Assembly (NCBI GenBank): GCA_948144175.1
Contig: CANXME010000494.1
Location: forward strand, 1 to 64,000
Direction of reading: 5' to 3'
From: Closterium sp. NIES-65
Lineage: Eukaryota > Streptophyta > Zygnematophyceae > Desmidiales > Closteriaceae
Length of the DNA stretch: 64,000 bases
Of the stretch, positions 581 through 61,400 are shown piece by piece; the first letter of the stretch is position 1, and each line of letters opens with the position of its first letter. The position numbers and the translations under genes are program-made. The notes below the pieces were generated by a model. That model saw only the letters and a list, made by a program, of their open reading frames with translations. It did not search any database and had not been told where the DNA came from.

Positions 581-3500
581 GCTTGGGGAGGGAGGGGACG
601 GGGGAGGGAGAGGGGATAGGAGCAGTAGCAGCAGCAGTGGCGGTGGTGTCGGTGGCGGCAGCAGCATCATCAGCATGCCACCATGAATTGTGCACGAAGC
701 ATCGCATCCTACCTACCTGCATACACTATACTGCCGTAACTCCAATCCATTTCACTCCACCCATCTCTTGGACAATCCAGGCAGGTGCAGCGCGTCCCTG
801 GCATACCCATGGAACCACGCCCTGCCCTCCATGATTTAAGTGTGAAAGAACTACCCTGCGGCCCTTCCTACGCTCTACTTCATCGCCCCTTCACAAACAC
901 GCTTGCCCACCCACCTCTTGGACAGACCGGGCAGGTGCAGTGCCACTCTCGCGTACCCCATGCCCACCATGAACTGTGTGAGCCAGCCCCCTGCATACAT
1001 ACATGCATGTACCATACTGTAGTCAATACCATACCTCTTGGACAGCCCTGGCAGGTGCAGCGCCCCTCTCGCATACCCCATGCCCATCATGAACTGCGTG
1101 AGTGAACACCCTGTATACATGCCTGCATGTACCATACTGTAGCAGTCATTACCATACCTCTTGGACAAGCCAGGCAGGTGCAGCGCCTCTCTCGCGTACC
1201 CCATGCCCACCATGAACTGCGCCAGGTCGTCATGGTGCTCTCGGCCCAGGCGGGACGCCCTGGTGGTGAGTGGTTACGGGAGGTGGCGAGGGGTTGTGAG
1301 GGATTGGGAGAATTACGGAGACAATAGGGAGAGAAGGGGCATGAGGCTTCAAATGGGTGAGGGGGCCATGAGAGGATAGGATAGGTGAGGGGGTGGCAAG
1401 AAGGAGAGAACGCGGAGAGAGAGCAAGGAGCGCAAGGAATGAGTAGTAAGTGAGGATCATAGTGAGGTGGTGGGGAGGATCAACATGAGCAGTAAGTGAG
1501 GGAATTGAGAGGAAGACAAAAAAAAGGCGCAGACCAGTTAATGGCGGCAATGCGCTTGACATGAGTAGAGAGGTAGAGATGGATAAAGAGAGGTGGAGAG
1601 GGAAGAAGAGATGGAGGGGTAGAGAGGAGGCACGCACCATTTGACAGCACCAACGGGGTCGCCATGAGCAGCGAGGCATCGGCAGCGCACTCCGGGGTGG
1701 GAGAGGGAGATGGCATGCGCTGTCATGTACCTGGTGAGAGGGGTGGGTGAGGGAGGTGAGGGGGGTGAGAGCAATGACACAGTGTAGGGTAAGGGTGGCG
1801 TGGGCGGTGAGGGTTGAAGGGGTCAGGATGGAAGGCGCGTTAAGATCAACGAGGGAAGAGGGGGAAGGGGAGACACTAAAGAGAGGACTATGGGCCTTTC
1901 TACTCAGAGACCACCACAGCAACTTTACTCACCGGTCCACGAGCCACAGGACGCCGTCTCGCACCCCCACCACATACACCTGCCCCACCGGCCGCCGCTG
2001 CTCCATCGGCAGCCGCCCGGCTGCCACCGGCACGCCCCCGCCGCCCACCACCACTTCGGGCGGCTTCACCTCGGGGCCGTCCAGCAGCCCCGGGCCTGAT
2101 GACGTGCCGGGCGGCGCTGACGTGGCGTCGGCTGATAGGCTGCAGGCCCGAGCCATGGCTGAGATTGGAGGGACTGCTGGGGGCGAGGAGAAGGAGGCGA
2201 GGCGGACCACCTGGTGGGGAGGGGGAAGAAGGGAGGGAGAAGGAACAGGGAGCGAGTGAGCTTAGTCCATTCACTCACCTACACACCCAGCTCGCCCTTC
2301 ACAGGCTCACAAGATAACCGGCATCCTGCTGTAACACGCTACACCGCACCGCACCACACTCACCTGCAGCATGGGCGGTCACAGCTGCATTCTCTCAGGT
2401 GCCTCCTCCTCCTCTGTCGTGGGTGGTTCCATCATGGCCAGCAGAGCCAGCTCGCCCTTTCCTGGCTCACAGGTGAACAAAGACACCCTACTGTAACACG
2501 CTGCACTGCACTGCACCGACTCACTTGCAGCATGGGAGGCCGCAGCTGAACCCTCTCCGGTGCCTCATCTGTCCTGGGAGGCGCCATGGCCAGCAGTGCC
2601 AGCTCACCCTTCCCAGGCTCACAGGAGAAGAAGCAACCTACTGTAACATGCTGCACTGGATTGCACCGCAGTGCACCACCACTCACCTGTAGCATGGGCG
2701 GCCGCAGCTGCACCCGTTCAGGCGCCTCCTCCGTCTTGGGAGGCGCCATGGCCAGCAGAGCCAGCTCGCCCTTCTCAGGCTCACAAGCGGGCACACCCTA
2801 CTGTAACATGCTCCACCGCACTGCACCACAGTTCACCGCACTCACCTGCAGCATGGGAGGCCGCAGCTGAACCCTCTCCGGTGCCTCCTCTGTCTTGGGA
2901 GGCGCCATGGCCAGCAGAGCCAGCTCACCCTTCTCTGCCACCACTTTAGCCTCCTCCTCCCTCCTCTTCCTCTCCTCCTTGCGCCTCCTTGTTTCCAGGT
3001 CGATCGCACTCACACCCGCATCCACAAACACACACCTGGATGGAGAGGGGGCAGAAGGGAGAGAGGAGAAGAATGGAGAGGGTAGCATGGACGGTGCCAC
3101 ATGCCCCCCCATGGCGCCCCTGACCGCCAGGTGGGCCAAGCAACGGAACTGCGGAGGCATCGTGGCCACCACAATCTGCGTGGCGTTGGTGCGGCTTTTG
3201 AGGATTCTCAAGAGTCGCACCAATATAGCGTTGTATGGAGAAAGAGTACAACACTAGGCACAGCAGACCTCCTCACACTCATGCACTGCACTCGTAACAT
3301 ATTCCATAACGCCCTTCGATTCGAACCCCCTTAACCCTTCATAACCCCTCAGAAACACTGAATCCCCGAACTAAGCCAAAAGGAACCAGAAAACCCACTC
3401 GACTGAGGTGGGCGTAGCCAGGAAGAGTTGGCGGTGGTGCCATGTGCCTCCTGTCGCCCCTCTGCCTGCCACGTGGCCCAGGCAGCGGAACTGCGGGCGC

Positions 3501-6500: not shown

Positions 6501-9500
6501 AAGCTACCTAGTGCAGTTCTTGTGGAATCAATGAAGCGAAGGGCCAAGGGTAAGGCGTGAAGGGCTGCACTGCAGCACTGCCACGTTCTTGATGACGGGA
6601 GTTGGTCGGTTTGGTTTGTAATCTCGAGATTAGGGCTTGCATAATAGTCAGACATTGTTGCATTGCAAAGCCTGATAGTCATTGTGGCAAGCCTCAGTTG
6701 GTGGGATGTCCATCATGGGTATGACTACTTACTTGCCGGACCTACTTACTTGCCGGACCTACTTACTTGCCGGACCTACTTACTAGCCGGACCTACTTAC
6801 TTGCCGGACTTGCTGACAGAGAGGTGCGAGTAGCTCTCATGTGCAACAGGTACTGCTCTCCGCCTCTCCTGCTTCACCTGCACGTAGGGTGAGCAGGTGG
6901 GGCGAGCGGGTGGAGTGGGGAAGCAACACAAGCAGGAAGGCAAAACAGAAACACCATACAAGAGCTTTGAGCTTTTATAAACTGACAATGAGGTGATTCG
7001 GATATTGTCCGTCCACGTGCACTCTATACCCTTTAAGGACCGACTCACCTCAGGCACAGCAGCTTCACGCGTCCACCCTGGTGACTACTGCAGGAATGAC
7101 GGGCCTCTGGCTGCCACTGTCCCCACCCCCCTCCCGAGCCCCCCTTCGCCCCAGTCACACCCCCTCAAATTCATACCCGTTACAGACTCAACTCACCTCA
7201 GGCACGGCAGCTTCAAGCACATCCACTCTCGTGACTACAGCAGGAATGACGGGCCTCTGGCTGCCACTCTCCCCCCACCCACCACAGTCACACTCACTCG
7301 CTGCATACTCAGCCTAGCTACACCTCTCTCAAGGCAATACTGACTCACGTCAGGCACGGCGGCTTCAAGGGCATCCACCCGTGTGACTCCAGCCGGGGTG
7401 ACGGGCCTCTGACTGCCACTGCGCTGCCCCCTTCCCAACCAGCCACCCTCAAGACAGCGCTAAACTCACCTCAGGCACGGCAGCTTCAAGCGCATCCACC
7501 CGTGTGACTCCAGCGGGAGTGACGGGCCTCTGACTGCCACTGCCCCCGCCCCCCGCCACAGTCACACCCGCCCCAGGCCCAACCTGCCCTGCTGTTAGCA
7601 GCTGGAAGGCGAGCGCGTTCAACCCCCTTCCCAGGCAGAACGCCACCTGAGGGGTTGAGGGGAGGGGACGGGTGGTAGTAGGTTGGGAATATACGCCTCA
7701 CAAACACTACCAGATCAAACAATTTTCTGAGTCTAGTCGAGTCAGCAGCTGGAAGGCGAGCGCGTTCAGCCCCCTGCCCAGGAAGAACGCCACCTGAAAG
7801 GGAGTGAGAGAAGGGGTAAGAGGGAAAGAGTAGCGATGGAGGAGGGCAGGCGAGGGTGAGTCAATGAGTAGCTGGAACGCCAGCGCATTCCGCCCCTTGC
7901 TCAGGCAGCAGAACGCCACCTGGAGGAGAAGAGGAGGGGGAATTGGTGGTAGTAGGCTGGAGCATGGGGCTGCACTGGCAGCCTCTGATCTACCTCACTC
8001 ACTCTTAAACCATGAGAACACTCAGTGTTGGCTGTGGCCACACCAGCAGTTTGGTCCAAGGCGTTCTTGGCTCATCCAAGTTCCAACTCTAGGGGCTAGT
8101 GAGTTCGGTCGGAGGCTACTGGAATTACCCACTCAATCCCTTGTGCACAGCATATCTGGTGTGCCGCCCGTAGTCACCATGTGCATACCATACAATACAA
8201 GGTGTGCTGCCCGTAGTCACCATGTGCATACCATACAATACAAGGCGTGCTGCCCATAGTCATGATGTGCATACCATACAATACAAGGTGTGCCGGCCAT
8301 ATGCACCATGTGCCCACCTGGTGCTGCCTGGAGCCCTGTGGTGTGGGATGGGAAGCGCTGCTGCGGGAGGCACGGTCGAAGCAGATGAGCATCACCCCCG
8401 CGTTGGTGCCACACTCACTCACTCACTCAGGCACTCACTCACACGTGCATCCTGATATCCCTTGCATCCCATTTGCCCACCTGGTGTTGCCGGGAGGCCT
8501 GTGGCGTGGGGAGGGCTGCTGCAGGGGGGACGGCAGTGCGGTCGAAGCAGATGAGCATCACCCCCACGTTGGTACCACACACACTCACTTACTCAGTCCC
8601 TCACTCACATGTGCACTTTAATATCCCTCGCTCCCATCCCAAATCCTCACCTGGTGCTGCCTGGATCCCTGGGTTGTGGGCAGTGCAGCTGCAGGGGGCA
8701 CGGCAGTGCGGTCGAAGCAGATGAGCATCACCCCCACCCACGTTGGTGCCACACACTCATCCGCTCGCTCACTCACTCACTCGCTCACTCACTCACTCAA
8801 TCACATGTGCACTCTAATTCTAATATCCCTCGCTCCCATCCCAAATCCTCACCTGGTGCTGCCTGGATCCCTGGGGTGTGGGGAGAGCGGCTGCAGGGGG
8901 CACGGCAGTGCGGTCGAAGCAGATGAGCATCACCCCCACGTTGGTGCCACACACCACCAGATGAGGCTGTAGGCTGTGCGGCATCATGCAGTAGATCTGA
9001 TGCAGAGAGAGAAGGGGACAATGGGGACGAGGAGTGAGAGGGGGAGAGAAAGAGGAAAGGGTGGAAGCAGATGAGCTTCACCCCCACGTTGGTGCCACAC
9101 ACCACCAGATGAGGCTGTAGGCTGTGCGGCATCATGCAGTAGATCTGATGCAGAGAGAGAAGGGGACAATGGGGACGAGGAGTGAGAGGGGGAGAGAAAG
9201 AGGAAAGGGTGGAAGCAGATGAGCTTCACCCCCACGTTGGTGCCACACACCACCAGATGAGGCTGTAGGCTGTGCGGCATCATGCAGTAGATCTGATGCA
9301 GAGAGAGAAGGGGACAATGGGGACGAGGAGTGAGAGGGGGAGAGAAAGAGGAAAGGGTGGAAGCAGATGAGCTTCACCCCCACGTTGGTGCCACACACCA
9401 CCAGATGAGGCTGTAGGCTGTGCGGCATCATGCAGTAGATCTGATGCAGAGAGAGAAGGGGACAATGGGGACGAGGAGTGAGAGGGGGAGAGAAAGAGGA

Positions 9501-12500
9501 AGGGGTGGAAGCAGATGAGCTTCACCCCCACGTTGGTTCCGCAGACCACCAGATGAGGCTCCAGGCTGTGCGGCTCCAGGCTGTGAGACTGCAGGCTGTG
9601 AGACTGCAGGCTGTGAGACTGCAGGCTGTGAGACTGCAGGCTGTGAGACTGCAGGCTGTGAGACTGCAGGCTGTGAGACTGCAGGCTGTGAGACTGCAGG
9701 CTGTGAGACTGCAGGCTGTGAGATTGTAGGCTGTGAGACTGCAGGCTGTGAGACTGCAGGCTGTGAGACTGCAGGCTGTGAGACTGCAGGCTGTGAGACT
9801 GCAGGCTGTGAGACTGCAGGCTGTGAGACTGCAGGCTGTGAGATTGCAGGCTGTGAGACTGCAGGCTGTGAGACTGCAGGCTGTGAGACTGCAGGCTGTG
9901 AGACTGCAGGCTGTGAGACTGCAGGCTGTGAGACTGCAGGCTGTGAGACTGCAGGCTGTGAGACTGCAGCTGTGAGACTGCAGGCTGTGAGACTGCAGGC
10001 TGTGAGACTGCAGGCTGTGAGACTGCAGGCTGTGAGACTGCAGGCTGTGAGACTGCAGGCTGTGAGACTGCAGGCTGTGAGACTGCAGGCTGTGAGACTG
10101 CAGGCTGTGAGACTGCAGGCTGTGAGACTGCAGGCTGTGGAGACTGCAGGCTGTGAGGACTGCAGGCTGTGTGCTGCAGGCTGTGCGGCTGCAGGCTGTG
10201 TGGCTGCAGGCCTGTGGCGGCTGCAGGCTGTGCGGCTGCAGGCTGTGCGGCTGCAGGCTGTGCGGCTGCAGGCTGTGCGGCTGCAGGCTGTGTGGCTGCA
10301 GGCTGTGCGGCTGCAGGCTGTGTGGCTGCAGGCTGTGCGGCTGCAGGCTGTTGGCTGCAGGGCTGTGTGGCTGCAGGCTGTGCGGCTGCAGGCTGTGTGG
10401 CTGCAGGCTGTGTGGCTGCAGGCTGTGCGGCTGCAGGCTGTGTGGCTGCAGGCTGTGTGGCTGCAGGCTGTGCGGCTGCAGGCTGTGTGGCTGCAGGCTG
10501 TGTGGCTGCAGGCTGTGTGGCTGCAGGCTGTGTGGCTGCAGGCTGTGTGGCTGCAGGCTGTGTGGCTGCAGGCTGTGTGGCTGCAGGCTGTGTGGCTGCA
10601 GGCTGTGTGGCTGCAGGCTGTGTGGCTGCAGGCTGTGTGGCTGCAGGCTGTGTGGCTGCAGGCTGTGTGGCTGCAGGCTGTGTGGCTGCAGGCTGTGTGG
10701 CTGCAGGCTGTGTGGCTGCAGGCTGTGTGGCTGCAGGCTGTGTGGCTGCAGGCTGTGTGGCTGCAGGCTGTGTGGCTGCAGGCTGTGTGGCTGCAGGCTG
10801 TGTGGCTGCAGGCTGTGTGACATCATGCAGCAGATCTGATGCGGAGGGAGGGGCGGAGGGGGAGGGAGGAAAAAAGAGAGCGGGAGGGAGGAGGAAAAGG
10901 GTCGAAGCAGATGAGATGAGAAGCGTAATTCACTCTAGCTTCTTTCTCACATCCAGACTCGCTCTTCTAAGCAACTTCCTGCAAACCCCAGTCACTGCCA
11001 TGAGCTTCTGATTCTCAAAACTGCCTGCCTGCCTGCCTGCCTGCCTGTCTGTCTGTCTGTCTGTCAAAGCTGCCTGCCTGTCCCCACTCACCTTGCGGTT
11101 CTTGCCTGCTGCCAACTGGGGAGTGGGTGGTGCGGTGTGTGGGTGGAGATGTGTTTTTTTTTAATAGTCTCAAAGCGCACCTGCCTGTTACCACTCACTT
11201 AAATTTTCCTCCCTGCTGCCACTCACCTTCAGCTTCTTGCCTGCTGCCAACTGGGGAGTGGGGGGTGCGTGGGTGGAGAGGTCGCAGATAGGCCTGCTGC
11301 CCCCTGATGCCTCCAACGCCCTGAGAAAGAGGGTGGAGGGAAATGGAGGGATGCACCATGGGAAGGTTTGAGCGGGGGAGGGGAGGTGTGTGAGTGGGAG
11401 GTCACAGATAGGTCTGCTGCCCCGTGATGCCTCCAGTGCCATTAGGGTGGGGAAAGTGATGGAAGCGAAGCAGGGGGAGAGGGGCAGGGAAAGAGGAGAA
11501 GACAAGAGTGGGGGGTGCGTGAGTGGAGAGGTCACAGATGGGCCTGCTGCCCCCTGATGCCTCCAACGCCCTGAGGCGAAGATGGGGAAGAGATTGGCCA
11601 CGGGCAGGTGAAGGAAGAGTGAGGGGAAGAGGAGAGGGAGATGGGGGGTGCGTGTGAGTGGCGTGGCGAGGTCATAGATGGGTCTGCTGCCTCCTGCTGC
11701 CTCCATTGCTCTGAAATAAGAAGCATGCCATCTAGCCAGCAACCCATGCACACACCGTTAGTCCACACGTGCATCAAACGCAACATCCCTTCGCTCCGCC
11801 AGTCCCTGCTGCCCACCACAAGCGCCAAAGCACGCCACCCACACAAGAGACAAAGCACGCCACCCACCACACGTGCGAGTCCTTGGCGCAGGCGAGCACC
11901 TCGACAGCTGGCACACGCGGGTGGCGCCAGCTGGCAATGGTGTGGCAGACGGTTTTGGGAATGGCATGCTTCATCCGCCGCACCTCCTGCAGGGAACCGA
12001 GGGGGTAAGGCAAGACAATACATAAGTGGGAAGTAAGAGAAAAGGGCAGATGGTAAGTGGTGAGGTGAGTAGACCCAATTCAAAGTGTGGCAGGCAAGCG
12101 GCCTTGAAATGGCATGCTTCATCTGGCAAACCTCCTGTATCAGATAGTAAACAAGACACGACGAGGCAAGGCAAGAGATGGACCGGGAAGGGAGGGGAAA
12201 AGGCAGATGGTAAGTGAGTGCAGCCAAGTCAAGTGTTGCAGTCGGCCTTGGGAATGGCGTGCTTTATCCGCCGCACCTCCTGCAAAGATTAGACACAAGG
12301 AAAGGCAAGGCGAGGCACAGTGAGGCAAGACATGAAGGGGGAAAGGGCAGAAAATAAGCAGTGAATGAATCGCAACTCAAATACGGGGGAATATCAGCCT
12401 TGGGAATGGCGAAGCAGGGGAGAGAATTGCATCTCTGTGTGCTCCCCTGACAGCATACTCAGTAAGAAGTACAAGAAAGGAGCACACCTCGATACATCCT

Positions 12501-24602: not shown

Positions 24603-26336
24603 TGTCAGAATGTTGTATTTGTCTAGCCTGCAGTGGGGTACTCTATAGCGAGTACAACCCAACTTAGGGTTTGCTATATGTACTCAAATGCTTGCTAGTG
24701 CAACCCCTCCTCTTTCTTGTTCTAAACTTTCTGCTCTTACCTTTCTAACATGCTATCAGAGCCAGTCCTTCCTTGGCCTGTGGGCCCACCAACCTGCTTC
24801 CGCTGCTACTCGATCTGTCGCACGCCCCGTGGCTTGCGACGTAGGTGCGCGGCGATTTACTCTCTGGGGCGCGCCCCGAGGCGCGCGGCCCCTTTTCTTC
24901 CTGGCGCGCCGGCCCCGCTGGACCTGCGTGCCCACCCCGTCGACCCTCGCGTCGCCTCAGGGGACCCGCGCGCCACCCCCTTCGACCCTCGCGTCGCCTC
25001 AAGGGACCCGCGCGCCACCCCCGTCGACCCTCGCGTCGCCCTCGGGGACCCGCGCGCCACCCCTGGAGCCGTGCGCGACCCCCCCGCTGCCTCGTCGCGG
25101 CGCCCTGGGGAGCCGCGCGCGGCCCCTTGCTGCCCCGTGGTGGCTCCCTAGGGGCCGCGCGCCGTCCCCCTCGCCGTCCCCCGCGCTCCTACCCCGTGTC
25201 ACCCGTTTTAGGGTTTGGGGGGTGGGGAGTGTGGGGGTGGCGGTTGTGGGGGTGGCGGTTGTGGGGGTGGCGGTTGTGGGGGTGCCGGTTGTGTGCGCCG
25301 TCCCCTACTCCTCCTCCTCCTCCTCCTCCTCCGTCTCCCGCTGCTGCAGCTACCGCTCAGGGGGGTGGGTGTGTGGGAGCCGAAGGAGTGGTGCTAGGGG
25401 GGTGTCGTGGGAGTGGAGCTAGGGGTGGAGCAGGGGGTGTGTGATAGGGGCGTGGGGCAGCTGGGGGAGGTTGAGTGGAGGCGGCCGTCGTGTCGCCAGC
25501 AGCGCCAGTAGTCCGGAGGCTACAATCTCCGGTCGTCGCCAGTCGCCTCTGGGTCAGTTGCTCCAGTCAGGAGGCTACAATCTCCGCGGAGCCAGTTACT
25601 CTTGTAGTCCGGGCCCTTGCTTCGGTAGCCACTGAGCCAGCAGCTCCTGTGTGTCTGCAGCTTCAGCAGTCGCCTCCCATCTTCTCGCCCCCACAGTCTC
25701 TCCTCCTCCTCACTTGCCCTCTGTGATAGCCTCTAGCTTTACTTATCATTGTGAACTATTTCTTTGCATGCTTGTTGTGCTGATTACACCCCACTTTGGC
25801 TATGGGGTGTCAGTAGATCTGCACTGTGGAAGCCCGATTGATCCTGGAGAGGGTTACACGCGCGTTCGCCTGGGGGGTTATGGGCGCACTGACCCGCTAC
25901 TTAACAAGCCCTTTTATCCCAATGGTCTAGTGGTTGGGATTCTGATATGGTATCAGAGCGGTCTCGGGTTCGGTTCCCGGTGTATGCACATGTAGGCCGT
26001 TGCCGCTGTGCTTAGTCCTAGGCCTCCCAGTGAGGGGGGGTGTCAGTAGATCTGCACTGTGGATGCCCGATTGATCCTGGAGAGGGTTACAGGCGCATTC
26101 GCTTGGGGGGTTATGGGCGCACTGACCCGCTACTTAACAAGCCTTTTTATCCCAATGGTCTAGTGGTTGGGATTCTGATATGGGGGTGTGTCAGAATGCG
26201 GTATTTGTCTAGCCTGTAGTGGGGTACTCTATAGCGAGTACAACCCATCTTAGGGTTTGCTATATGTACTCAACTGCTTGCTAGTGCAACCCCTCCTCTT
26301 TCTTGTTCTAAACTTTCTGCTCTTACCTTTCTAACA
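24603..26336 (+). mobile_element. N1: non-autonomous LTR retrotransposon, TSD TTGAC
   Basis: Two 148-bp LTRs (24603-24750 and 26189-26336; TGTCAGAATG...TTTCTAACA) flanked by TTGAC (24598-24602, 26337-26341). PBS TGCTATCAGAGCCAG starts at 24751; polypurine tract TGGGGGTG precedes the right LTR. The internal region is GC-rich with repeated CCCCGAGGCGCGC-like and GGTGGCGGTTGTGGGG units and lacks gag or pol. The long GC-driven frame (24688-25422, Arg/Pro/Ala-rich) has no recognisable domain. A TRIM is inserted in its polypurine tract. Confidence 0.9.
25808..26180 (+). mobile_element. TRIM copy A (373 bp), TSD TGGGG
   Basis: LTRs 25808-25947 and 26041-26180 (140 bp each, TGTCAG...CTGATA), internal 93 bp with PBS TGGTATCAGAGC (25948-25959) and a G-rich polypurine tract before 26041. 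TGGGG flanks both sides (25803-25807, 26181-26185). Pol III-like A box TGGTCTAGTGG at 25923-25933 and near-consensus B box GGTTCGGTTCC at 25968-25978 straddle the LTR/PBS junction. No coding capacity. Confidence 0.9.
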
Positions 26337-26389
26337 TTGACCTCCGCAGAGTTTCGCACACCTCCGCAGAGTTTTGCACACCTCTGCGA

Positions 26390-32423: not shown

Positions 32424-32770
32424 TGTCAGAGGTCCACTGGTGATCCCCGATCGATCCTACGGAAGGGTTACAGGCACATTTGCCTGGGGGGTTATGGGCG
32501 CACTGACCCGCTACTGAAACAAGCCCTTTTATCCCAATGGTCTAGTGGTTGGGATTCTGAGATGGTATCAGAGCGAAGGTCTCGGGTTCGAATCCCGGTG
32601 TATGCATTTCGGGCATCCCAGTGCGGGGGGGTGTCAGAGGTCCACTGGTGATCCCCGATCGATCCTACGGAAGGGTTACAGGCACATTTGCCTGGGGGGT
32701 TATGGGCGCACTGACCCGCTACTGAAACAAGCCCTTTTATCCCAATGGTCTAGTGGTTGGGATTCTGAGA
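32424..32770 (+). mobile_element. TRIM copy B (347 bp), TSD ACGCG
   Basis: LTRs 32424-32562 and 32632-32770 (139 bp each, apparently identical; TGTCAGAGG...CTGAGA), internal 69 bp: PBS TGGTATCAGAGC (32563-32574) and polypurine CGGGGGGG before 32632. ACGCG at 32419-32423 and 32771-32775. A box 32538-32548, perfect B box GGTTCGAATCC 32585-32595. Inserted in the Copia B RT gene. Confidence 0.95.
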
Positions 32771-38916: not shown

Positions 38917-40454
38917 TGTCAAAATTAGAAGAAAGAAAGAGGATTGAACTAGCAGAAATGGGGATACAAATAGCAAACCCTAGAAGGGTTGTACTCGCTA
39001 TAGAGCACCCCACTACAGGCTAGAACATAAGAATAACATTCTGACACACCCCCATAGCCAAAGTGGGGTGTAATCAGCAGAGCAAGCAAAGCAGTACAAG
39101 CTCAGGGTGGATCACAATGTCACCACACATTCTGAGCACAAGTTCAAGAAGTAAGTTCAAGTGCACAATTATGAGCAAAGCTAGTGGTGGTCACAACGGG
39201 CAAGTGAGGAGGAGGAGTGAGAGCGAGAGGAGTTGGGAGGCGACGGCTGAAGCTGCAGACACTCGGGCAACAGGAGGCACACTGGCACAGCGGCTACCGG
39301 GCGAAGCCCCCGGAATACTGGAGTAATTGGCCCCGCGGCTAAAGTAGCGGCAGACGAGCAACGGACCCACGGGCGGCTGGCACAGCTGGCTACGACTGGG
39401 CTACCGGGCGAAGCCCCCGGAATACAGGTGCTGCTGACGACACGACGGCAACCTCCATGCAGCTTCCCTAACTATCCAACTCCCCCAACACACACCCGCT
39501 GATACGCTCCTAGCTCCACTCCCACGCACCCCCCTTAAACCCTAAACCCGAGTCTCCCACACAACCACCCCCCTCAGCGACAGCTGCAGCAGTGGGAGAC
39601 GAAGGAGGAGGAGAAGGGGACGGCACGCACAACCGACACCCCCACAACCATCACCCCCATACCCGTCACCCCCATACCCTGAGTGTGCGGTAAGCGAGCT
39701 CAGGTGTGCGTGAAGCGTGCACAAGCTTACGGGAAGCGAACTCGGATGTGCGGTAATCGAACTCAGGTGTGCGGGGAGGGGGGCCGCAGGGTGACGCGCG
39801 GGTCGACGGGGACGGGTGCACGGGTCCCCAGGGGCGGCGCGCGGGTCGACGGGGCCGCCACGAAGGGCGACCGGAAGCCGCGCGCGGGTTGACGGGGCCG
39901 CCGCGAAGGGCGACGAGGAGCCGCACGCAGGTCGACGGGGACGGGCGTGCGGGTCGACGGAACGCGAAACCGCCGCGTGCGCCCAAGGTGCGCGGTGGGC
40001 AGAAAACCGCCACGCGTCCCGAGCGCATGGCGTGCAGAATACCGCCGCGCAAAGCAGGTAACCGTCGCGCGCCTCGAGGCGCACGGTGGGCAGAAAACCG
40101 CCGCACGCCCCGAGCGCGCGGTGGGCAGAAAACCGCCGCGCGCCTCGGGGCGCACGGCGGGCAGAAAACCGCCGTGCACCTCGGGGCGCAGGGCGGGAAG
40201 AAAAAATGCCGCACGCCACGGGGCGTGCGGCACAGAGAGTAGCAGTAGCAGTTGCAGCGGAAGCAACGAGGTGGTGAGCCCACCCAGAGGATCGATCCAA
40301 GGGGATCGACCTGCTCTGATACCATGTCAAAATTAGAAGAAAGAAAGAGGATTGAACTAGCAGAAATGGGGATACAAATAGCAAACCCTAGAAGGGTTGT
40401 ACTCGCTATAGAGCACCCCACTACAGGCTAGAACATAAGAATAACATTCTGACA
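38917..40454 (-). mobile_element. N2: non-autonomous LTR element inside Gypsy A, TSD GTACG
   Basis: 130-bp LTRs at 38917-39046 and 40325-40454, essentially identical, flanked by GTACG (38912-38916, 40455-40459). On the minus strand: PBS CATGGTATCAGAGCAGG beside the right LTR, polypurine GGCTATGGGGGTG beside the left LTR. Internal DNA is GC-rich with CGCCCCGAGGCGCGCGGC-like repeats; no gag or pol domains. LTR core GGGTTGTACTCGCTATAGAG is shared with N1 and N3. Confidence 0.93.
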
Positions 40455-48092: not shown

Positions 48093-48678
48093 TGTGAGAG
48101 TACGCCGATGTTCGACATTTTTCTCAATTCTATATTTTTACATTATCTTATTCTCCTTTTTTCCTCTTTCATTTGCACTTTATTTCACCTCAATCGGACT
48201 ACTATTCTATTTTCTAGAGCTTTCCGATCATTTCACTGATTTTGTATTTTCGGCACTGACATTTACATTATACGGCACCAACAACACCGACAGTGGTGTA
48301 CAAGGCGTAATCTTGCCATAATCCGAAGTGCCAGTGGGCTTGCGTGCTTATGCGTACTAGTGATTATCTATTCTAGAAGAGCGTGTTCCAAAAGGTCCGG
48401 ATTATTTGTTGTTTCTATGTATTTCTGAGTATAAATACGCCTTGTACTCACCTTTAGTGCAACATTCTCGAGTGGAAATTCAATCCTGTGACACTTGGTA
48501 TCAGAGCCGTTTTCCCTCGCGGAGTTTCAGCTGAGCAGCGCGTTCAAGAAATTCATGCTTCGAATAACCGCCAAGGGCGATGAATTCGGTGCCGACGCTG
48601 GTAAGCACCAGGTTCCGCGCTTTTTTAATAACCCCCCTCACGCGTTTTTTTAACAGGTTCATGTGTTGATTGTGAAAG
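48093..48678 (+). mobile_element. Gypsy D 5' LTR and leader
   Basis: LTR about 48093-48493 beginning TGTGAGAGTACG, as in Gypsy A and E, and ending CCTGTGACA, followed by PBS CTTGGTATCAGAGCCG. Sequence otherwise diverged from the A/E LTRs. The leader runs to N3 at 48679; no Gypsy D coding sequence is visible. Confidence 0.7.
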
Positions 48679-53100: not shown

Positions 53101-53851
53101 GCACAGGTGACACCAGTTACATTCCGCTTGCGCTTACCAGATACGTGGAAGCTTCACAATGCTTTCCATGTGCAGCTACTGAAACCCTACAAGGACCCCA
53201 ACCAACAGTTCAAGGGACGGCATCTACCGCCACCTCCACCTGTTCTTGTGCAGGATGAACCCGAGTACGAGATCGAGCGCGTTCTCTCTCATCGGCGCCG
53301 CGGCGGCAAGACCCTCGAGTTCCTGATACGCTGGAAGGGATACGACCCCACAGAGGACAGTTGGATTGCAGAAGCTGATATGGGCAACGCACGCCGTGCT
53401 CTCAAGGACTATCTTGTCAAGCAGGGTGTATCTCACGCCACCCAGCTTTGAGGGGGGGACGTGTGAGAGTACGACGCCTTATGCCAGCTATGCTTGCTTG
53501 CCTTTACTTTATCATGCTATTTCTAGCATAGGATAATTATATGCATGCATGAATTGCTTGATTTCCTAGGCTAGGTGCTTTCCTATATTTTGTTATAGTT
53601 ATAGCACCGAGCTAGGTTGCGTGCACCGAATTCTGGCTTTTCGGTTGCCACCGAATTGCCTTCTACCGAATTCGGTAAGGATCCGTTCGGGACGCTACGC
53701 GGCCCGCGGAACCTTCGCGTAACACCTGGTTACGGGGCCTTGTGTCGAGCCTATATATAGCCTCGTGTTGTACCCAGGTGAAGACATTCAATTCAATTCA
53801 ATTCGACTCAATTCTCATTCTCTTTTCTGAACTCGATCCTAGATCCTCACA
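50195..53851 (+). mobile_element. Gypsy E: chromovirus, 5' part missing
   Basis: Near-identical sister of Gypsy A. Begins inside the gag/protease junction (YGYSEQQQPLVLEVICKGRR, DSGASHSLYDRG) with a TAA near 50337, and continues to a 3' LTR at 53462-53851 (390 bp, polypurine TTTGAGGGGGGGACG). The LTR has CTATATATAG and an expanded CAATTCAATT segment. The 5' LTR and gag are absent; N3 abuts instead. Confidence 0.9.
50426..53451 (+). pseudogene. Gypsy E pol with integrase deletion
   Basis: The first frame 50426-52768 covers RT (YLDDILIYS at about 51255) and RNase H (DHCSLKYL) to integrase [10 protein letters not shown]. Compared with Gypsy A, about 70 bp is missing near 52567, removing the ARLFFDRII...ATLIS block and shifting the frame. 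The second frame 52615-53451 carries the rest of integrase and the intact chromodomain. Phe to Arg in the [13 protein letters not shown] motif is a further change from Gypsy A (FGLCNAP). Confidence 0.92.
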
Positions 53852-54252
53852 GTCCTGGGCCTCCCAGTGTGGGGGGGTGTCAGTAGATCTGCACTGTGGA
53901 TGCCCGATTGATCCTGGAGAGGGTTACAGGCGCGTTCGCCTTGGGGGTTATGGGCGCACTGACCCGCTACTGAAACAAGCCCTTTTATCCCAATGGTCTA
54001 GTGGTTGGGATTCTGACATGGTATCAGAGCGGTCTCGGGTTCGATTCCCGGTGTATGCACATGTAGGCCGTTGCCGCTGTGCTTAGTCCTGGGCCTCCCA
54101 GTGTGGGGGGGTGTCAGTAGATCTGCACTGTGGATGCCCGATTGATCCTGGAGAGGGTTACAGGTGCGTTCGCCTGGGGGGTTATGGGCGCACTGACCCG
54201 CTACTGAAACAAGCCCTTTTATCCCAATGGTCTAGTGGTTGGGATTCTGACA
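53852..54252 (+). mobile_element. TRIM copy C: tandem array (partial internal, LTR, internal, LTR)
   Basis: LTRs 53878-54018 and 54112-54252 (141 bp, TGTCAGTAG...TTCTGACA). Internal 54019-54111 with PBS TGGTATCAGAGC. Upstream of the first LTR is the 3' part of another internal region (53852-53877), so at least three LTRs once stood in tandem; Gypsy E's LTR abuts it. A box 53994-54004, perfect B box GGTTCGATTCC 54038-54048. Confidence 0.9.
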
Positions 54253-59702: not shown

Positions 59703-61400
59703 CTACCGGTACTCCTCCTCCTCGTGCTCCTTAGCCTCCTCCTCGTCGAACGTCAGCTGAGCGTAGGCGTCGACCGAGAACGGCGTCTTCGGGACTCGAC
59801 CGCCTTGCTCCTCGTCGATGAAGCGCCTGCGCAGCTTGTCGGCGTAGCCCTGCTGGTGCAGCCATAGCTTCCTGGCCGGCCTGTCGCGCATGATCTCTAG
59901 CCCAAGGTACTTCACCACCGGCGAGATCTCATGCAGCTCGAAGGCGGCCTTCAGTAGCTCCTTCAGCATCGTAGTGCTGCTGCTTGCGGCGAGAAGGTCG
60001 TCAACGTAGACCAGCACCCAGCAGGCCACTCTGTCGTCGCCGGCCTTGAAGTAGAGCGCCTCGTCGACCTGGCTCTTCTTCCAGCCGACGCCCAGCAGCA
60101 CACTGTCGAGAGCCCTGTACCACAGCAGCGGCGACTGCTTCAGCCTGTACAGGTTCTTCAGCAGCTTACACACCCGGCCGGTCCCGTCGTCGAAGTAGTC
60201 CGGCTGGTACATGTAGAGCACCCTGTCGAGCTTGCTCTGCAAGAAAGCGTTCTTCATATTGAGCTGCATCAGGTTGAGGTCGAGGACGGCGACGATGCTG
60301 AGGAAGATCCTCAGCGTGACGTAGCTGCTCACCGGCGAGTACGTCTTGTCGTAGTCGGCACTGTACACCTGCGTGAAGCCCTTCACGACCAGCCTCGCCT
60401 TCTTGCACTCAACGGTGTCGTCGATGCGGTAATTGGTCGTCAGCACCCGCCGGCTCTTCATGATGTTCACCCCGTGTGGGCATTCGACCAGCTCCCAAGT
60501 CCCCATACCGATGAGGTTGTGGATCTCTTCTTCCATGGCGGCCTTCACCGCCTCGCCCTTCCAGCTCGCCAGCGCCTCCTTCACCGTCATCGTGGCGATG
60601 TCCCAGCGGTGTTCGGGGTCGACATGCACGTCAGGGTCGAGCTCCGGCAGGTCTTCATCCTCCTCGGCATCGTCGTACAACAGGTTGTCGTCGACCTCGT
60701 CGAACACCGTCGTGAAGGCAGCTGGCGGAAGGCAGGCGTGGAAGCTCAGCCGCTCCGGTGGCCGTCGAGCTCGACCTGTGCATCGTAGCTCAAGCTTCCA
60801 CCACGTCACTTTCGGTGGACTCCTCACCCGCCAACTGCTCCCCTTCCTCATCGACGTCCCCGTCGTCGACCAGCTGCTTCGACCCGTCGACCGACTGCTC
60901 GTCTGCTGCTGCCTTCGACAGCTCCCCTGTCTACTGCACCGCTGCTGTTGCCTCCTGTTTGACCGGCTCCCCTGTCTGCTGCTCCCCTGTCGTCGACGGC
61001 TTCCCATCCTGGTCAACGAGCTTGACGTCTTATCGACCGCCGGCGATGCCATGGGCCGGCGCCACAGGCGACGCCTCAAGGCTCCCCTCATCGTCGGTGG
61101 TCGACACAGGTGCCGACCCAAGCCGATCTGCGACAGGGAACGGAGGAGCAAGGACAGGGGGAGCGGGAAGAACCTCCACACCATCCTCATCAGCAGGCTC
61201 GTCGACCTCGGTGAGCAACGGAATCGTTGTCGTCGAGGTGTCCGTCGGTGGGTGCGCCTGCATCCGCTCCGACGCCGGCCCATACTTTGCCTTTCACACC
61301 TCAAGCAACAGCGTCTCGTAGAAGATCACCTCGACCGACATGACCACCTTGTTGTCGGTCAGGTCGAGCACCTCCCAGCCCTTGCTCTCCGGCGACACAA
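59703..61400 (-). CDS. Copia G reverse transcriptase (truncated by stops)
   Basis: After an Asp/Glu-rich linker (DDNLLYDDAEEDEDLPELDP) the RT reads WKGEAVKAAMEEEIHNLIGM, RLVVKGFTQVYSADYDKTYSPV, LMQLNMKNAFLQSKLDRVLYMYQP and catalytic VYVDDLLAASS. A stop at 59703 precedes the thumb/RNase H. The N-terminal part, upstream of about 61000, is in a different frame from integrase. Confidence 0.9.

Follow-up and report, generated by a model that had tools for sequence, protein, structure and literature searches.

tRNA-Glu-like A and B boxes flank the LTR/PBS junction of a TRIM family in Closterium and may form a split pol III promoter

We found that a family of TRIM elements in Closterium has an A box and a B box resembling those of tRNA-Glu on either side of the junction between its 5' LTR and its PBS. 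Sequence comparisons support this arrangement as being beyond chance. The reading that we somewhat favor is that the TRIM is non-autonomous and that the two boxes make up a type 2 pol III promoter, derived from tRNA-Glu and split between the LTR end and the sequence following the PBS.

The original prediction had placed three copies (A, B and C) in the window, that is, the whole 64-kb stretch of DNA that was analyzed, and had reported perfect 5-bp TSDs for two of them. Both the positions and the TSDs (TGGGG for copy A, ACGCG for copy B) were confirmed. The copies and their parts are as follows.

25808..26180, plus strand: TRIM copy A
25923-25933, plus strand: A box of copy A
25948-25959, plus strand: PBS of copy A
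25967-25977, plus strand: B-box-like stretch of copy A (one mismatch)
32424..32770, plus strand: TRIM copy B, which sits in a minus-strand Copia pol
32538-32548, plus strand: A box of copy B
32563-32574, plus strand: PBS of copy B
32585-32595, plus strand: B box of copy B
53851..53877, plus strand: 27 bp of the element's internal 3' part, ahead of copy C
53878..54252, plus strand: TRIM copy C (5' LTR 53878-54018, 3' LTR 54112-54252)
53942..53959, plus strand: LTR stretch of copy C resembling the complement of the initiator tRNA-Met anticodon arm (a lead only)
53983..53986, plus strand: T-run TTTT of the 5' LTR of copy C; in the 3' LTR, the proposed pol III stop
53987..54011, plus strand: hairpin ATCCCAAT/GTTGGGAT of copy C, with the A box in and around its loop
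53994..54013, plus strand: tRNA-Glu-like 5' part at the LTR end of copy C, with the A box at 53994-54004
54012..54028, plus strand: weak TCTGA/TCAGA stem formed by the LTR end and PBS of copy C
54019..54030, plus strand: PBS of copy C
54036..54052, plus strand: T-arm-like internal stretch of copy C, with the B box at 54038-54048
54105..54111, plus strand: polypurine tract (PPT) GGGGGGG of copy C

The elements are 347-375 bp long, with LTRs of 139-141 bp. In each, the PBS TGGTATCAGAGC sits right behind the 5' LTR and is followed by a brief internal part and a G7 PPT. We take TGGTATCAGAGC to be the complement of the 3' end of plant initiator tRNA-Met. All of the LTRs start with TGTCAG and they end with TCTGACA (C), TCTGATA (A) or TCTGAGA (B). 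Both LTRs of copy A thus end in TA and both LTRs of copy B in GA, not in CA, despite the perfect TSDs. The two LTRs of a copy differ at 5 of 140 positions in A, 0 of 139 in B and 2 of 141 in C; given its identical LTRs, copy B is probably young. No TSD was found at copy C, which, with the 27 bp of internal sequence in front of it, looks as if it had been cut from a tandem array.

The likeness to tRNA-Glu that had been predicted for both sides of the junction was borne out: the LTR 3' end is close to the 5' half of this tRNA, and a T-arm-like stretch with a B box follows the PBS. All six LTRs carry the A box TGGTCTAGTGG without a mismatch. Copies B and C likewise have a perfect B box (GGTTCGANTCC), whereas that of copy A deviates at one position (GGTTCGGTTCC). 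As the comparison sequence we used what we take to be human tRNA-Glu-CTC; the tRNA of Closterium itself may differ. In copy C, 19 of 20 nt at the LTR 3' end agreed with this sequence, and downstream of the PBS 17 of 17 nt agreed with its T-arm. Neither match was equaled in 2000 dinucleotide shuffles, a test that covered copy C of the three copies. The starts of the A and B boxes are 44 (A), 47 (B) and 44 (C) nt apart, compared to 43 nt in the tRNA. A derivation of the T-arm-like piece from antisense initiator tRNA-Met was rejected for copy C, 763 of 2000 shuffles being as good, versus 0 of 2000 for tRNA-Glu.

We scanned the window for pairs of A and B boxes with at most one mismatch per box and 25-100 nt apart. 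Each of the three 5' junctions had such a pair, and no 3' LTR of the three had one; a single unrelated pair was located at 3378-3405 on the minus strand. Twenty shuffled windows had zero to three pairs each. Runs of four or more T occur once in each LTR, 8-11 nt ahead of the A box, and nowhere else in the elements.

If the promoter is split in this way, the A box at the LTR 3' end and the B box just past the PBS would act as one type 2 promoter, with TFIIIC binding both boxes across the 5' LTR/PBS junction. The LTR end and the PBS, both replication signals, would occupy the place that the anticodon arm has in a tRNA, between the two boxes. Pol III would begin near CAAGCCCTTTT in the 5' LTR, a short way ahead of the A box, transcribe the PBS, the PPT and U3, and halt at the T-run of the 3' LTR. 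With a start just upstream of the 5' T-run and a stop at the 3' one, both ends of the RNA would share a repeat of about 10 nt. Primed by initiator tRNA-Met, cDNA would then be made by the proteins of an autonomous element, probably Copia, which the PBS and the 5-bp TSDs fit but do not prove. The cDNA would reunite the A box with the B box at the 5' junction only, so that 3' LTRs and solo LTRs would be without a complete promoter. More tentatively, we propose that reverse transcription itself assembles the promoter, one half being present in both LTRs and the other internally, and that only the 5' junction of a full copy is active while 3' and solo LTRs are silent.

Several features speak for a split promoter: the exact boxes (A in six of six LTRs, B in two of three copies) with a spacing of 44-47 against 43 nt, the match of both halves to the same tRNA, the single T-run of four or more in each LTR, and a block conserved between copies B and C (see below). 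Against it, the T-run is also close to the proposed start, and premature termination of pol III could result. According to passages of PMC11700998, flowering plants use CAA triplets within 10 nt of tRNA genes as start sites; the CAA here spans -12 to -10 relative to the tRNA-like part, slightly outside the usual -1 to -10 given there.

The family has many relatives among predicted Closterium proteins. Read in one frame, the TRIM matched 133 of 178 candidate proteins at E <= 0.1, and among the matches listed (120 of 133) all were from Closterium sp. NIES-53 or NIES-54. A search in another frame gave 5 of 18 matches at E <= 0.01. The Copia pol at 59706-61325 (minus strand) matched 679 proteins at E <= 0.001, and the 120 listed were all from Closterium. 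Because the relatives are proteins predicted by others, their codons had to be deduced, and copies lacking an open frame escape detection. In the 242 proteins retrieved, the LTR 3' end was found 108 times, in 103 distinct versions. From there, 35 of the 103 continue into the PBS, 57 pass from the terminal T codon into other sequence and 11 do neither. The 57 that leave the element are followed by 55 different sets of six residues, and this variety fits integration at many sites. In three of the predicted proteins (P0216, P0122 and P0126), several TRIM LTRs or junctions follow one another, which suggests tandem arrays. Many predicted proteins fuse a foreign stretch to the element at the CAG of the PBS (window 32566-32574 and relatives), as if gene prediction had taken this CAG for a 3' splice site.

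We also looked for the motifs outside of Closterium. The exact A-box pattern was not found in viral contigs. The PBS with a B box was found in one viral stretch, and no LTR element was recognized in the 551 bases read there; with a wider gap, the combination was found in none of the bacterial and archaeal genome contigs. On the minus strand of one viral contig (L001:854-876), TGGTATCAGAGC is joined straight to a B-box-like GGTTCGACTCC, and ARAGORN found no tRNA there.

Conservation bears on the promoter in both directions. Between copies B and C, LTR positions 1-65 have 14 substitutions and 4 gap columns, whereas the stretch from LTR position 66 to the TATGCA past the T-arm has 2 substitutions and one 3-nt gap over 116 positions of C. 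The distal internal part has 5 substitutions and 27 gap columns. The conserved block contains the T-run, the A box, the LTR end, the PBS and the B box, plus 40 nt upstream of the tRNA-like part, an extension that counts against a split promoter. Copy A departs from C at a few places inside the block.

Among 34 relatives, we found no special conservation of the boxes. The consensus codons were present in 122 of 136 cases for the A box, 128 of 136 for the linker, 114 of 136 for the PBS, 126 of 136 for the B box and 228 of 251 for the internal part; the boxes are thus no better kept than internal codons, and these similar levels are as expected of neutral decay after insertion. The count used 34 of the 49 rows that span the region, and the 15 dropped rows had fewer than 16 of 24 consensus residues; many of these were apparent gene-prediction joins at the CAG of the PBS, and the filter favors conserved rows. 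The count is a test of the decay of integrated copies more than of constraint on source elements. The original prediction had named decay of the boxes like that of their surroundings as its refutation, and individual relatives do decay in this way, but the subfamilies of B and C share the conserved block that contains the boxes. In 14 of the 103 distinct copies, a change from V to T would, by the likeliest codons, remove the last G of the A box.

Alternatively, the tRNA-Glu-like sequences could be left over from a SINE or from tRNA capture, in an element that pol II transcribes (TATA-less or by read-through) like ordinary TRIMs. Uniform decay of the boxes and their surroundings, the altered A box in 14 of 103 copies and the mismatch in the B box of copy A all fit such a relic and count against a split promoter, and read-through is possible, since many of the relatives' copies sit inside predicted host or transposon open reading frames. 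However, the boxes, their spacing and the single T-run per LTR have been kept between the subfamilies of B and C while the first half of the LTR diverged, and overall we consider a mere relic unlikely.

The original prediction went further and saw in the junction a tRNA-Glu-like fold, though not a functional tRNA, in which half of the anticodon arm is supplied by the PBS. The boxes and their spacing are tRNA-like, and a TCTGA/TCAGA stem of 5 bp with a 7-nt loop can be drawn and occurs in the predicted junction folds of copies B and C. This stem is weak, however, with a free energy of -1.8 kcal/mol (z -0.58) for the four inner pairs by themselves. Its TGA/TCA core arises because the LTR end TGACA adjoins the PBS TGGTATCA, and a different neighboring element, at 40324 on the minus strand, has the same combination of LTR end and PBS (TTTTGACATGGTATCAGAGC). 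No covariation of the stem was seen among the relatives listed, and the distance from the PBS to the T-arm varies. An arm purpose-built from the PBS thus finds no support.

Nor did the junction behave as a tRNA. ARAGORN at normal settings and Rfam at gathering scores gave no tRNA at the element. Relaxed searches of the kind that had been suggested yielded three sub-threshold Rfam matches in copy C, two of which were the T-arm hairpin alone, and several ARAGORN tRNAs that contradicted one another and came up at one 3' LTR as well. The predicted folds of the 73-76-nt junctions had three separate hairpins in place of a cloverleaf, and their stability did not exceed that of shuffles (C, z -0.62; A, z -1.67; B, z -0.44); nor did the stability of the proposed transcripts (C, z -0.05; B, z -0.57). 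The T-stem is partly mispaired in several relatives of the commoner subfamily. There, Q (96 of 125) replaces the R of copy B (16 of 125), a change that puts A for G in the 3' arm of the stem. In other frames, three of four relatives read with A keep the opposite C (mispaired) and one has T (paired); P0232 was read directly, and P0133, P0224 and P0222 by linkage to neighboring codons. Three relatives read with G have C twice (paired) and T once (wobble), small numbers in all, and one further match, P0123, was assigned to neither group. We conclude that tRNA mimicry is very improbable. In relatives the B-box codons are kept while some have lost a T-stem pair, as would suit a motif in DNA better than a fold in RNA.

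RNA structure could play a different part: the three hairpins around the PBS may serve packaging or help to initiate reverse transcription, and GGGTTATGGGC of the LTR might give the primer tRNA a second contact. The hairpin ATCCCAAT/GTTGGGAT around the A box folds better than 195 of 200 shuffles, the other 5 folding as well. Two changes in the 103 distinct relatives, N38S and V42T (numbered in the frame of copy B), are linked: both occur in 9, S alone in 5, T alone in 5 and neither in 84 (Fisher p 1.2e-6). By the likeliest codons, the two together would turn A-T into G-C and T.G into T-A in the stem of this hairpin, while the A box would lose its last G. However, the copies share ancestry, so that the linkage may be one inherited event, and neither the junctions nor the proposed transcripts fold better than shuffles (z -0.05 to -1.67). 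Of 2000 shuffles, 4 equaled the complementarity of the LTR to initiator tRNA-Met in copy C and 11 did so in copy B, but the gapped score of copy C was reached by 47 of 2718 tiles of the window. Among the 40 of these 47 that were listed, many are in the TRIMs or in antisense initiator tRNA-Met leaders (see below) and several are elsewhere. Passages of PMC5371799 describe initiator tRNA-Met in Ty3 and Ty1 as pairing with the PBS plus further element RNA, which in Ty3 is in U3. In such a bipartite PBS, GGGTTATGGGC could make the extra contact; unlike in Ty3 and Ty1, the extra match here is to the anticodon arm and is statistically weak. We regard the second contact as a lead only, and a function of the junction as an RNA element as doubtful.

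The idea that a TRIM captured a tRNA, contained in the original prediction, fits the tRNA-Glu-like boxes but is not new: in 2024, Kojima described Helenus/TRIMp3, TRIMs with tRNA-derived sequence and boxes A and B in the LTR (PMC10886601). In excerpts of that paper, Selaginella is the only plant listed and the use of pol III is unproven. The Closterium TRIM is like Helenus/TRIMp3 as described there in being a non-coding LTR element of less than 1000 bp (here 347-375 bp) with a PBS and a PPT (here G7), in having tRNA-derived sequence with an A box in the LTR (here the 5' part only, 19/20 nt), in sharing similarity around the pol III boxes without a functional tRNA and, as in fungal and plant Helenus, in having a 5-bp TSD (here in two of three copies). 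It differs in that its B box is internal, beyond the PBS, whereas boxes A and B of Helenus/TRIMp3 are aligned within the LTR, and in that its host is a zygnematophyte alga and not Selaginella. The host lineage and the B box outside the LTR would be new relative to Helenus, judged on the descriptions of Helenus and not on its sequences.

Cassandra, as described in parts of PMC7215508 and PMC10853983, is also a plant TRIM with the PBS TGGTATCAGAGC and tandem arrays, and in ferns this PBS is only 8 nt from the 5S part. The known pol III promoter of Cassandra is derived from 5S rRNA and lies wholly in the LTR, whereas the putative promoter of the Closterium TRIM is tRNA-Glu-like and split; a search of the window with Rfam at gathering scores found no 5S rRNA. 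The proposed repeat of about 10 nt resembles in its logic the short terminal repeat of 18 bp given for Cassandra in a passage of PMC10886601. SMART and other plant TRIMs are likewise very short LTR elements with a PBS, a PPT and tandem arrays, but no mention of a tRNA or of pol III turned up when the two main texts were searched for these words, a comparison made by description (PMC3281118, PMC4717578). Among the open-access papers listed by literature searches, none dealt with this family or with a TRIM whose tRNA promoter is split. With this family, the lineages that have tRNA-bearing TRIMs come to include a streptophyte alga. If true, a split promoter would not fire from 3' or solo LTRs, a layout absent from the descriptions in the excerpts of the TRIMp3 paper (PMC10886601). 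With many copies in culturable strains, the family would let the unproven use of pol III by tRNA-bearing TRIMs be tested.

Other elements in the window have leaders that start with a PBS and continue as antisense initiator tRNA-Met. There are five of these.

24751-24814, plus strand: antisense initiator tRNA-Met leader with PBS
40324-40244, minus strand: antisense initiator tRNA-Met leader with PBS
50052-49983, minus strand: antisense initiator tRNA-Met leader with PBS
56003-55944, minus strand: antisense initiator tRNA-Met leader with PBS
46042-45992, minus strand: antisense initiator tRNA-Met leader with PBS

From the PBS on, each is a long antisense copy of what we take to be plant initiator tRNA-Met, covering about residues 1-57 to 1-75 of its reverse complement, and four of the five are without 3-7 nt at the anticodon loop. 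Their scores were 48-69, compared to 37-45 for the best of 1000 shuffles in each case, and the five loci make up the 13 best of 2718 tiles of the window. With the PBS trimmed off, three leaders still beat 1000, 1000 and 999 of 1000 shuffles; a fourth trimmed stretch missed its leader. At another PBS, at 48496, 163 of 1000 shuffles were as good after trimming. It is possible that the leaders reflect extended annealing of the primer or copying of the primer tRNA into the element.

One of these leaders is flanked by direct repeats of 149 bp (24603-24751 and 26189-26337, 96.6% identical), and TRIM copy A is inserted beside the 3' repeat. Stretches related to this repeat are present on the minus strand near 39, 40, 49-50 and 54-56 kb. 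The window also has a long tandem-repeat stretch at 8912-10821, with open frames on both strands.
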